This document shows positions 54,634 through 58,584 of a DNA stretch of 64,000 bases, one piece after another. The stretch's first letter is position 1. Each line of letters opens with the position of its first letter. The stretch covers positions 74,073-138,072 of the forward strand of contig VXQO01000025.1 of the NCBI GenBank assembly GCA_009838975.1, written 5' to 3'. The notes below the pieces were generated by a model. It saw nothing but the letters and a program-made list of their open reading frames with translations, was not told the origin of the DNA and searched no databases. The translations under genes were made by a program, and so were the position numbers. This DNA comes from Gemmatimonadota bacterium. GTDB lineage: Bacteria > Gemmatimonadota > Gemmatimonadetes > Longimicrobiales > Gaopeijiaceae.

Positions 54634-55125
54634 ATGAACCGCGACACCAGGCTCGAACCCGCGCGCTTTCGCCGGATAATGAGGAACTATCCCACCGGCG
54701 TCACGGTCGTCACGGCGTTGCACCGCGATGGAACGCCCTTCGGACTCACCGCGAACTCGGTCGCCTCGGTATCCCTCGACCCCCCGCTCGTGCTCGTATG
54801 CGTCTCGGAGAGGTCTTCTTCGCTGGGAGCGATCCTGTCGAGCGGCGCATTTGCCGTCAACGTCCTCGGGGCGGGGGCCGCGTCGACTGCGAAGCGCTTC
54901 GCAGAGATCGACACCGACCGGCGTTTCGAGAACATCCGGTACACCGTGGAGGACGGGGGCAGCCCGATCCTGGAGGACGTCGTCGCGTGGATGGCCTGCA
55001 GCCTCTACCGGACCTTCGAGGCCGGTGATCACATGATTCTGGTCGGACGCGTGCACGAGGCCGACGCATCCGGAGGCGATCCACTCCTCTTCTTCCGGGG
55101 CCGCTACGAATCGCTCGACTCATGA
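54634..55125 (+). CDS. Flavin reductase-like protein (FMN-binding split barrel)
   Basis: A 163-residue protein of the flavin reductase domain family: RRIMRNYPTGVTVVTALHRDGTPFGLTANSVASVSLDPPLVLVCV is the conserved first half, and ILEDVVAWMACSLYRTFEAGDHMILVGRV the second. Such enzymes reduce FMN/FAD for a two-component monooxygenase; no oxygenase is adjacent. I chose the ATG at 54634, which fits the family length, although the open frame begins at 54601. Its stop overlaps the next start (ATGA). Confidence 0.9.
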   Translation: MNRDTRLEPARFRRIMRNYPTGVTVVTALHRDGTPFGLTANSVASVSLDPPLVLVCVSERSSSLGAILSSGAFAVNVLGAGAASTAKRFAEIDTDRRFENIRYTVEDGGSPILEDVVAWMACSLYRTFEAGDHMILVGRVHEADASGGDPLLFFRGRYESLDS

Positions 55126-56363
55126 CCCGGGCCCGCCGCCTCGTCTGGATTCCGTCGTTCCTGGCCGGTACGGCGCTGGCGGCCGCGCTGGCGACCGGCG
55201 CGGGGATCCTCCTCTACAACTCCCGTGGCCTGACGCGCGCGGGCGGGGTGCTCCTCACGGTGAGCGCCGTGTCCCTGGTAGCCGGAATCCTGATGGGCAG
55301 CGCCGCGAGCAGCGCGGCCTCCGACAGAACCGTTACCTCGGCCGCGCGGGGGTGGATGGGATTCCTGGTGGCGCTGGTCCTGGGAGCCGGTTTCGTCGGG
55401 CTGTGGGAAACCATGAACGGCTTCGGGGCCACTCCCGTCGCGCAGGGCGTGGGGCTGGCGCTGACCTCGGCCTTGCCGGCCTACTTCGCGGGTGGCGTAT
55501 GGGGCCGGATGAACGATTTCGCGGTTTCGCTCGGAACCGGCGAGCAACTCCAGGTGTTCGCGGGCGGCGCCATGGGCCTGGCCGCCGGCGGCACAATGAT
55601 GCTGGCCCTTCTCGGGGAGCCGGTACTCGCCGTGACGGTGTTTCTCGGCGCCGCCGTACTGGCATCGGCGGGCGCTCGTTGCCAGGGATGGATCTTCGAC
55701 AGAGTCCCGCGGCGAAGTCTGACGCTCGACACGCCTGAACGCCCGGAGTTGCGGTTCGAGAGCTGGCTGACCGCAATCCCCGAGCGTTCGGTGCGCGTTC
55801 TATGGGACGGCGGCACCGACCGTGCCATCGAGCCGGCGCCGACCGGCGATTGGCGAGTCGGGGTGGCGGGCACTCTGGACGGCGCCAGCGGAGTCCTGTT
55901 CATCGGCGCCGGCAGCTGGTTCCCTGTCGATGGCGACCGACCCTGGAAGCTCTTCGAAGCCGACGGCGACGTACGCGGACTCGCCGCCCGGGGGTTCGGC
56001 TGGGAAGAGGCGAAGCTGGCCCGATCCCCGGTTCCCGAGCTCTCAGGGTGGACCGTGGTCGCCGAGCGCGAGGCGTTGTCAGCCGTGAGAATCAAGTCGC
56101 TCCACGAGGCGGGAGTTGAAAGAATCTGGGTGGGCGGTCGCCGGGGCAGAGTCCCGGGACACCTGCTCGAGGACGCCCGGGAGGTCACTTTCGCGTTTCG
56201 CCGCTATCTCGGATCGGGACCGGGCATCGACGGGCCGCCGCGGCTCGCGGCCAGATGCGACGAGTTGTGGTGCTTCGATCGTTCCCAGGCGCCTCCCGAA
56301 GCGGTCGACGGGATGACAGCGGTTTCGCCGGAGGTGCCCTCGGGGCGCGACGAGGGTCGATGA
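55122..56363 (+). CDS. Uncharacterised six-helix membrane protein with cytoplasmic C-terminal domain
   Basis: A 413-residue protein that I do not recognise. About six hydrophobic helices lie at residues 8-31, 40-63, 78-98, 106-126, 143-163 and 166-185. A soluble domain of about 220 residues follows. Its SGVLFIGAGSWFPVDGDRPWKLFEADGDVRGLAARGFG segment loosely resembles a Rossmann strand-loop as in membrane-attached spermidine-synthase-like proteins, but with atypical glycines, so this is only a suggestion. It starts at ATG overlapping the flavin reductase stop, and its own end overlaps the Mre11-like gene by ATGA. Confidence 0.75.
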   Translation: MTRARRLVWIPSFLAGTALAAALATGAGILLYNSRGLTRAGGVLLTVSAVSLVAGILMGSAASSAASDRTVTSAARGWMGFLVALVLGAGFVGLWETMNGFGATPVAQGVGLALTSALPAYFAGGVWGRMNDFAVSLGTGEQLQVFAGGAMGLAAGGTMMLALLGEPVLAVTVFLGAAVLASAGARCQGWIFDRVPRRSLTLDTPERPELRFESWLTAIPERSVRVLWDGGTDRAIEPAPTGDWRVGVAGTLDGASGVLFIGAGSWFPVDGDRPWKLFEADGDVRGLAARGFGWEEAKLARSPVPELSGWTVVAEREALSAVRIKSLHEAGVERIWVGGRRGRVPGHLLEDAREVTFAFRRYLGSGPGIDGPPRLAARCDELWCFDRSQAPPEAVDGMTAVSPEVPSGRDEGR

Positions 56364-57307
56364 GGGTCGCCCACCTCTCCGATCTTCACCTCGGGTACGG
56401 TGGGGCCGGACGTGGACAGGGGCGGGCCAACGACATGTTGCGGGTGTTCCAGGCTGCGCTTCGCCGGATCGCCGAGCTGGAACCGGGGCTGGTGGTGATG
56501 GCGGGCGATGTCTTCGATCACCCCGATGTGACCGCGTCGCCGATCGCCGTCTTCTCCCGGGAAGTGCGGAAGCTGCGCGAGGATCTGCCCGGCGTGGTGG
56601 TGGCAATCGTGGCCGGTGCCCGGGATACGCCCCTGGATCCGGAACGGCACGGACCTCTCTCGGTGGTGGGTGCACTGGAGGCCGTGGAGGTGGCCGCCGC
56701 GTCGGTTCGGCGCCTGAAGGTCGCAAAGGGGAAGGTCGCGGTCACGCTGGTCCCGCACGGAGCGGTGGCCGCACCCCGCCCGCCGAGTCTGCGGCCCGAC
56801 CCGCGCGCCAGGTGGAACGTCCTGGTGATCCATGCGGCGCTGGCCAGCGGGACCGCCCCTGCCCTTCCGGTCAGACTCCGTGACTGGGACTATGTCGCGC
56901 TCGGTTCCAACCATGTCCGCACCCAGGTCTCCGAAAAAGCGCACTATTCGGGTTCGCTGGAAAGGATCGGGCCGGATCCCTGGGGTGAGGCCGCGGTGGA
57001 CAAGGGTTTTCTGACCGTCGAACTGGGATCCGGCCGGGTGGAATTCTCGCCGGTCGAGGCCCGCGCCGCCGTCAGCCTGGCTCCGGTCGACGCCGCGGGG
57101 GGCGGGGTCGCCACTGTGGCGCGTCGACTGGGCGAGGCGTTGGCGGGAGTTCCGGGCGGGATCGACGGGAAGCTCGTGCGTATTCCCGTCAGCGGTCTCT
57201 CGGCTCGAGAACTGGCAGCACTGGACAGGGACGTTCTGGTGCGGATCCGGCGACGCGTCGCACAACTGCGAATCGATGCGCTGCCCGACGGAGTCTCCCG
57301 AACGTGA
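56360..57307 (+). CDS. Mre11/SbcD-like metallophosphoesterase with degenerate metal site
   Basis: A 315-residue calcineurin-like phosphoesterase aligned with SbcD/Mre11. Conserved metal ligands are Asp8 and His10 (HLSDLHLG), Asp50 (MAGDVFDH), His158 (VLVIHAAL) and His185. The GNHD motif has become G86-A87-R88-D89, losing the metal-binding Asn and catalytic His. The GHxH motif is G182-S183-N184-H185, losing one His. Nuclease activity is therefore doubtful. The start is the ATG at 56360; the frame upstream belongs to the membrane protein. It overlaps the Rad50-like gene by GTGA. Confidence 0.85.
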   Translation: MRVAHLSDLHLGYGGAGRGQGRANDMLRVFQAALRRIAELEPGLVVMAGDVFDHPDVTASPIAVFSREVRKLREDLPGVVVAIVAGARDTPLDPERHGPLSVVGALEAVEVAAASVRRLKVAKGKVAVTLVPHGAVAAPRPPSLRPDPRARWNVLVIHAALASGTAPALPVRLRDWDYVALGSNHVRTQVSEKAHYSGSLERIGPDPWGEAAVDKGFLTVELGSGRVEFSPVEARAAVSLAPVDAAGGGVATVARRLGEALAGVPGGIDGKLVRIPVSGLSARELAALDRDVLVRIRRRVAQLRIDALPDGVSRT

Positions 57308-58584
57308 GGCTCCAGACCCTGATGGGGAACACGCGGAGGTCCGGCATCGACCTTCGCGACGAGCGGGGGCTGATCGCCCTTGTCGCCGCGGACGAATCCG
57401 ACTGGCGTGAATACATGGATGCCCTCCAAGACGCCTTCGGCCGCGCAGGCGACTTTCCCGGGCCCGGCCCCGCCGTGTCCGGCCCGAAAGGCCCCGTGAG
57501 AATCGGTACCCCGGGCTTCGAGGCGCTGCTGGCCCCCTTGCTCGCTGCAAACGGCATTCGGCGGGAGGAGTACGCCGCGCTGTGGTTCGGCGCCGGCGCC
57601 GTCAGGGTGTGGTTGTCGGCCGCGGGATCGCTCGAGCAACAGCGGCGGCGAACCCGCAGCCAAAGCGGCACGGGAGGGGAACTCGGGCGCGTGGCGGCAG
57701 CCGACAGGAGCCGGGCCGAGGAGGACCTCCGCGAACTCGAGAAGAGAGCCGCCGAGGCCGAGGCTGCGGCCGAAGCCGGTATCCTCGCGTGGGTCCGGGA
57801 AAAGCAGGACGCCGAGACGAGGCTATCGCTCTATCGGGATCGCGAGAAGGAGCTGCGGCAACGTGTTCGCCAGATCGAGAAGGATGGCGAGGACGCTGCC
57901 TGTTCGGGTTGTGGTCGACCGCTTGGTGATCACGCCGGCGCGGTCTGCACCGTGCGAAGGGAGGAATGGGAGGTTGTCGTGCAGGACGGACGGTGGTGGC
58001 GCCGCCGGCGCGACCAGCTGCAGTCCAGGCCGCGCCGGGTCAGACAGCTGGAGCAACGGGCCGCGGCGTTGCGGGCCGAGGTTGCGGCCATGTCGGCCAC
58101 GGTCGTGCCGGAAGACGCCGGGGCGGGAACCGAGGTGGCGGCTGCGGCGCGGCGCAGCGCGGGGCGCGCGATTCACCGCAAGGCCGTGGCCCTGACGGGA
58201 GGGCGCATCGCGGGAGCGTTCCCGGGCCTGTTCAGGGACTGGATGGAAGGGGCGCGCGGGGGTGCGGGCGGAGAAGAGATCGCGGTCCTCGAGCTGGCGA
58301 CCCGGATTGCCATGGTGGAACTGGCGCTCGAGTGCGGCACCGCGCCGGGATCGGCGGTTTTTTCAACCGGCCTCGAACAGCTCAACAGCGAGGACATCCC
58401 ACGGGTGCTGGTGGAGCTGGCCGATCTGGCCAGGCGGGTTCCTCTGCTCGTGGTGAAGGTCACCCCGCAGGTTGCCGCCGGCGCCCCCGAGTGCTTCGAT
58501 CTGCTCCTGCGGCTCGAGCGTTCGCCTATGGGACGGCGGATCCGGCGGCAGAAGTCGGGGCTGGGACTGATCCGGCTGGGCTAG
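57304..58584 (+). CDS. Rad50/SbcC-like protein with zinc hook but degenerate ATPase motifs
   Basis: A 426-residue protein with a miniature Rad50 architecture. Head half 1: residues 22-47 (GLIALVAADESDWREYMDALQDAFGR) align with the strand-loop-helix of Walker A, but W34 sits at the Lys position of GKST. Coiled coil about 110-195, then a zinc-hook motif C200-S-G-C203-GRPL, then a return coil to about 275. Head half 2: AGGEE (321-325) recalls the LSGGE signature, and AVFSTGLEQLN (351-361) replaces the DEG-x-LD of Walker B/D-loop. It probably cannot bind ATP normally. It starts at GTG 57304. Confidence 0.8.
   Translation: MRLQTLMGNTRRSGIDLRDERGLIALVAADESDWREYMDALQDAFGRAGDFPGPGPAVSGPKGPVRIGTPGFEALLAPLLAANGIRREEYAALWFGAGAVRVWLSAAGSLEQQRRRTRSQSGTGGELGRVAAADRSRAEEDLRELEKRAAEAEAAAEAGILAWVREKQDAETRLSLYRDREKELRQRVRQIEKDGEDAACSGCGRPLGDHAGAVCTVRREEWEVVVQDGRWWRRRRDQLQSRPRRVRQLEQRAAALRAEVAAMSATVVPEDAGAGTEVAAAARRSAGRAIHRKAVALTGGRIAGAFPGLFRDWMEGARGGAGGEEIAVLELATRIAMVELALECGTAPGSAVFSTGLEQLNSEDIPRVLVELADLARRVPLLVVKVTPQVAAGAPECFDLLLRLERSPMGRRIRRQKSGLGLIRLG

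Follow-up and report, generated by a model that had tools for sequence, protein, structure and literature searches.

A family-wide Mre11-Rad50-type gene pair in Gemmatimonadota that lacks the ATPase motifs and keeps the zinc hook

A degenerate Mre11-Rad50 gene pair

In a 64,000-nucleotide stretch of a Gemmatimonadota genome (assembly GCA_009838975.1, contig VXQO01000025.1, positions 74,073 to 138,072; hereafter the window), two overlapping genes on the forward strand, on which all features given below lie, encode a degenerate pair of the Mre11-Rad50 (SbcD-SbcC) type. The first gene (56360..57307, ATG start at 56360) encodes a Mre11/SbcD-like pseudo-nuclease of 315 amino acids (aa), and the second (57304..58584, GTG start at 57304) a Rad50/SbcC-like protein of 426 aa without ATPase motifs. 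They share the four base pairs GTGA at 57304-57307; coordinates and frames had been given correctly in a preliminary description of this DNA. The host genome comprises 4.5 Mb in 162 contigs, of which G000:C105 holds the window, and close relatives of the window are metagenome-assembled genomes of Gemmatimonadota/Longimicrobiales.

The best curated match of the Mre11-like protein was SbcD (TIGR00619), at 36 bits, under the cut-off of 77.65 (E 6e-9), while the calcineurin-like fold PF00149 was matched above its cut-off and M. jannaschii Mre11 with E 4e-6 (phmmer). The Rad50-like protein had zero matches in Pfam or NCBIfam, including PF13476, PF13558 and TIGR00618, and its locus was not among the matches listed in SbcC-type searches of the genomes. 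A family profile of 59 relatives, however, aligned to the canonical SbcC of neighbouring families with probability 100 and E 6.8e-44 (hhalign), and the same profile found P. furiosus Rad50 among the PDB sequences (E 3.8e-9). Gene order, this profile match and the predicted Mre11 and Rad50 folds establish that the two genes share descent with a normal SbcD/SbcC pair. A frameshift or overlooked motif can be ruled out: neither Walker A nor GNHD nor GHxH occurs in the other forward frames of the region, hence no frameshift hides them.

Loss of the ATPase motifs and conservation of the zinc hook

Near the N terminus of the Rad50-like protein, a strand and helix remnant of the P-loop (GLIALVAADESDWREYM, 57367..57417) has lost Walker A, with W34 at the position of the lysine. 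The local hhalign alignment leaves the N-lobe uncovered; here, GLIALVAADESDWREYM was matched to GLTGIIGPNGAGKSTIL by the family alignment together with the predicted strand and helix, and W34 was placed by ungapped reading from the strand preceding the P-loop. For the C-lobe, hhalign against canonical relatives set S354-T355 of SAVFSTGLEQLN (58351..58386), once Walker B and D-loop, at the Walker B Asp-Glu, L360-N361 at the Leu-Asp of the D-loop, and AGGEE (58264..58278) at SGGEE of the ATP-binding cassette (ABC) signature, so that the signature serine was lost as well. The degenerate Walker and D-loop residues first read from the letters were therefore upheld, and the more sensitive alignment restored no canonical motif. 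The GGEE remnant named alongside them does stand at the signature position in the window but is not conserved in relatives, and it should not be taken as a retained signature.

The zinc hook CSGC (C200 and C203, 57901..57912) is present as described. Across the clade, Walker A is absent from and CxxC present in all 68 degenerate loci (L105-L172). An AlphaFold2 model (predicted local distance difference test, pLDDT, 88.9) placed CxxC at the apex of the coiled coil, and the predicted head superimposed on that of P. furiosus Rad50 (4ncj; Z 16.0, 4.3 Å, 239 residues). The arms are short, about 60-70 residues each vs about 200 in canonical SbcC. They also form the most conserved part of the protein (residues 157-245, 57772..58038), holding 18 of the 21 invariant columns. 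In the degenerate set, mean pairwise identity was 62% in the hook arms, 27% in the N-lobe and 36% in the C-lobe; in the canonical set, it was 49% in the hook arms, 81% in the P-loop region and 71% in the C-lobe. Judged by these identities, conservation is inverted relative to the canonical relatives, with the hook arms above the former ATPase lobes. Canonical SbcC of the order passed on both hook flanks, W(L/V)RERQDAET.L..YRDR..EL and EEWESVVQDG.WW.RR..QLE.KP, and the VVQDGRWW motif of the descending arm (57976..57999) is common to canonical Longimicrobiales SbcC.

Changes in the nuclease site and gene fusion

Residues of relatives are numbered as in P. furiosus Mre11, with window equivalents including D50 for D49 and H185 for H208; for metal sites 1 and 2 we follow the residue assignment of the P. 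furiosus Mre11 structure. Metal site 1 of the window protein is intact (Asp8, His10, Asp50, His185). The sequence and the alignment of relatives place its ligands D8 and H10 in a retained DLH (56381..56389), and GDVFD (56504..56518) keeps the bridging D50, with Asp at the canonical His (H52 in P. furiosus). GNHD has become GARD (residues 86-89, 56615..56626) and GHxH has become GSNH (residues 182-185, 56903..56914), in which H206 is lost and H208 retained; both replacements had been noted at the outset.

Among the degenerate Mre11-like proteins, Asp8, His10, Asp49 and His208 are each retained in 61-64 of 65. Asn84 is gone and His85, the proton donor of Mre11 (PMC4996933), is an invariant Arg in all 65 aligned; His52 has become Asp in nearly all, and His206, lost in about 58/64, was kept in only 6. 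An SbcD/Mre11 nuclease is expected to have the metal site 2 ligands N84 and H206 and the catalytic H85, which are missing here, and a calcineurin-like fold with a capping domain, which is found (PF00149; fused homologue compared with M. jannaschii Mre11). The new invariants, among them the Arg at H85, the Pro of an RxxxDPW motif and the Asp that replaces H52, show that the nuclease site was remodelled and not given up. Partial loss of the site, as originally proposed, thus stands for N84, H85 and H206, but simple erosion does not, given the intact metal site 1 and the Arg invariant in 65 proteins. The tail following PGGI measures 51 aa in the window protein and its near relatives vs about 101 in canonical relatives, and the C-terminal Rad50-binding helices of Mre11 are missing from the window protein.

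About half of the degenerate loci consist of a single continuous Mre11-Rad50 reading frame. A maximum-likelihood tree built on the Mre11 half splits canonical from degenerate sequences at a branch with support of 100/100, and its well-supported branches require four or more switches between the fused and the separate state. The AlphaFold2 model of one fused protein (L130; pLDDT 86, predicted template modelling score 0.83) contains both folds: its first 314 residues matched M. jannaschii Mre11 (Z 27.3, 3.0 Å, 279 residues), and residues 370-813 matched the P. furiosus Rad50 head (Z 16.9). Repeated fusion suggests that the two halves work together.

Distribution, gene order and selection

Within the family of the window, 101 of 121 genomes matched the Rad50-like profile, and about 97/121 are true carriers once weakly matching canonical SbcC and SMC-like (structural maintenance of chromosomes) proteins are excluded. 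A scan of 84,980 genomes returned 72 loci, all from Gemmatimonadota where a phylum was named. L105-L172 are degenerate; the other four (L173-L176) are canonical, as are the pairs of the sister families f2/f3, with GPNGAGKS, SGGEED, LDEVFGSLD, GNHD and GHYH. Both types share one gene order (sigma factor, rsgA, flavin reductase, membrane protein, mre11, rad50, TMEM260-like and/or trpE), from which it follows that the change occurred in place. The pair is therefore not an ordinary paralogue of the genome's canonical pair, as its locus is syntenic with the canonical SbcCD of the sister families. By tree and profile, the direct ancestor type is the canonical SbcD-SbcC found in Longimicrobiales and in other Gemmatimonadota (for example G036/L059, L175, L176), which agrees with the degenerate pair in locus, gene order and hook motif. 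Its five motifs, the 815-aa SbcC with long arms and the SbcD with a Rad50-binding tail have all been lost in the degenerate pair.

The frames are open in essentially all of the about 97 genomes, and the ratio of nonsynonymous to synonymous substitution rates (dN/dS) among near relatives was 0.12-0.23, with 0.11 for the hook. The degenerate pair is thus real, family-wide and under purifying selection. It lies at about 2.901-2.903 Mb of the G026 chromosome, and the cultured Gaopeijia maritima very probably carries it. The pair is cleanly absent from some family members (G008, G010, genus g12 and g35). In G008, which belongs to the same genus as the window, the membrane-protein and TMEM260 frames stand 134 bp apart (L186, G008:C19), a clean deletion.

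Other SbcCD genes in the carrier genomes

The host genome also has a canonical SbcCD, spread over two contig ends, with GNHD, GHIH, GDTGAGKS and the hook CPIC. Additionally, a second SbcD-type gene lies outside the window, separated from the degenerate pair by about 60 kb (L100, G000:C105:186066-189985), with intact GNHD/GHVH and a partner frame of 938 aa; a zinc hook was looked for in this pair of the host genome and none was found. The spacing of about 60 kb is similar in many relatives (for example G001, G005, G009, G013). The arrangement recalls the Bacillus-type YhaO/YhaN-like pairs, a second SbcCD-like pair in bacteria, which in the host genome differs from the degenerate pair in its intact nuclease motifs and the lack of a detected hook. 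Outside the genus of the window, no canonical hook-bearing SbcC was found in the carriers G025-G028 and G031, which include Gaopeijia, and no other SbcD was found in G027. The degenerate pair is thus not generally dependent on a canonical hook partner.

Proposed function and alternatives

The loss of the nucleotide motifs and of metal site 2, together with the kept folds, the conserved hook, the selection on both genes and their fusion, speaks for repurposing and against decay, as the preliminary description had supposed; alignment, frame and conservation tests all went against the contrary. We propose, with a probability of about 60%, that a canonical SbcD-SbcC turned into a hook-centred complex independent of ATP, which serves as a constitutive tether or scaffold carrying two binding modules. 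The Rad50-like chains would homodimerise via Zn2+ at the CxxC hook, and the shortened arms would hold two Mre11-like modules at a fixed spacing without an ATP cycle, linked covalently to the arms in the fused forms. Peptides spanning the hook, up to 45 residues long, show very tight zinc dimerisation (PMC5093744), and the hook serves for constitutive dimerisation, as a module for which an SMC hinge can substitute (PMC6969161), from which we infer such a zinc-dimerised scaffold. The Mre11-like modules would bind rather than cut, most likely DNA ends or branched DNA, DNA being the most likely ligand because of ancestry. Loss of His85 need not abolish DNA binding, since P. furiosus Mre11-H85S was crystallised with branched DNA and manganese (3DSD).

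Several observations weigh against this proposal. In two other comparisons the Rad50-like gene had a dN/dS of 0.34-0.46, the clean losses in some lineages indicate that the pair is dispensable, and, with the Rad50-binding helices missing from the window protein, the case for a putative contact between the separate chains in this genus comes only from relatives in which they are fused. Moreover, some chemistry may still be possible at metal site 1. The original suggestion of a non-catalytic complex is well supported for ATP binding, but the Mre11-like half, with its one complete metal site, may still be catalytic.

This leads to the main rival: the Mre11-like half would still be an enzyme, a one-metal phosphoesterase or phosphodiesterase for a new substrate, relying on metal site 1 with the Arg taking over from the catalytic His, and the Rad50-like half would only dimerise it. 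The near-complete retention of the four site 1 residues and the new constraint seen in the invariant Arg, Asp and RxxxDPW Pro speak for it, as do the one-manganese Mre11 structures on record (4fbk). However, known Mre11 nucleases use two metals and His85 (PMC4996933 for His85), N84 and H206 are lost in all or most members, and the remaining ligands could be only structural or DNA-binding; on balance, we consider an enzyme unlikely. Lower still we place a regulator of another SMC or Mre11-Rad50 complex in the cell, which would pair its hook with that of canonical SbcC in mixed dimers or compete for its DNA. The canonical hook-bearing SbcCD of the host and the intact SbcD-type gene nearby would offer such partners, but carriers in which neither a canonical hook-bearing SbcC nor, in G027, any other SbcD was found, and the mismatched arm lengths, make this improbable.

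A slowly decaying relic without present function would agree with the clean absences and a few eroded copies (L160/G023, L165), but hardly with open frames throughout the carriers, dN/dS well below 1, new invariants and repeated fusions, and seems very improbable to us. Nor do we give more than a slight chance to a hook that stores zinc or senses zinc or redox state, the heads forming a passive platform: apart from the hook, no site in the Rad50-like half is strictly conserved, and RloC is known as a zinc-responsive hook protein (PMC2610378), but conservation runs 30-40 residues along both arms and includes the Mre11-like fold, beyond the needs of a metal store. Anti-phage defence was ruled out, with only weak PADLOC matches at the coiled-coil level (LmuB and similar, E 4e-4 to 0.05) and no synteny with defence genes.

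Returning to the hook-centred scaffold, a close parallel for its Mre11-like half is found in the regulatory B-subunits of eukaryotic replicative DNA polymerases, in which the nuclease site of a calcineurin-like phosphodiesterase fold was inactivated to yield a scaffold (PMC4996933). They differ in belonging to an unrelated lineage and in having neither hook nor ABC head. We know of no new invariant Arg in them. The tRNase RloC retains its ABC ATPase, has an added RNase and is not known to contain a Mre11 part. Its likeness lies in a zinc hook at the coiled-coil apex that is tied to another activity (PMC2610378). Published precedent for a degenerate or pseudoenzyme Mre11-Rad50, or for Gemmatimonadetes SbcCD paralogues, was not found in a literature search made largely without subscription journals. 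In the Mre11-Rad50 complexes known to us, the ATP motor is always kept; here, it was removed and the hook kept, in dozens of species of a mostly uncultured family and probably one cultured bacterium. There is a reasonable chance that the pair has a new way of working. Tentatively, it may even form a separate functional class in the Mre11-Rad50/SMC world, ATP-independent, with the zinc hook and arm base as its selected core and a one-metal, Arg-containing phosphoesterase-like site, often in one fused chain. What remains possible for a zinc hook with its arms when ATP no longer drives engagement of the heads thereby becomes testable, and the naturally motor-less proteins, short and fused, may lend themselves better to purification and structure determination than full complexes.

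Neighbouring gene and divergent copies

Upstream, a membrane protein gene (55122..56363) overlaps the Mre11-like gene by 4 bp. The protein has a hydrophobic N-terminal half and a C-terminal Rossmann-like domain, which in relatives gave a weak spermine/spermidine synthase match (PF01564, E 0.002, below cut-off); the copy in the window seems itself degenerate. A specific partnership with the pair was ruled out, as the gene also adjoins canonical SbcCD and persists where the pair is deleted.

The most eroded copy of the pair is L160 (G023:C405), in which DLH has become NPR, H208 is lost and most of the Rad50-like N-lobe is gone, with the hook arms intact; L165 is strongly eroded as well. In the fused gene of L149 (UBA1142), the Mre11 part runs over two frames; this copy is either broken or misassembled. 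In a sister family, L067/L095 (G054) combine a Mre11 with a broken site (GDRD and GHHP) and an SbcC with fully intact ATPase motifs; this independent case may represent a first step on the same path.

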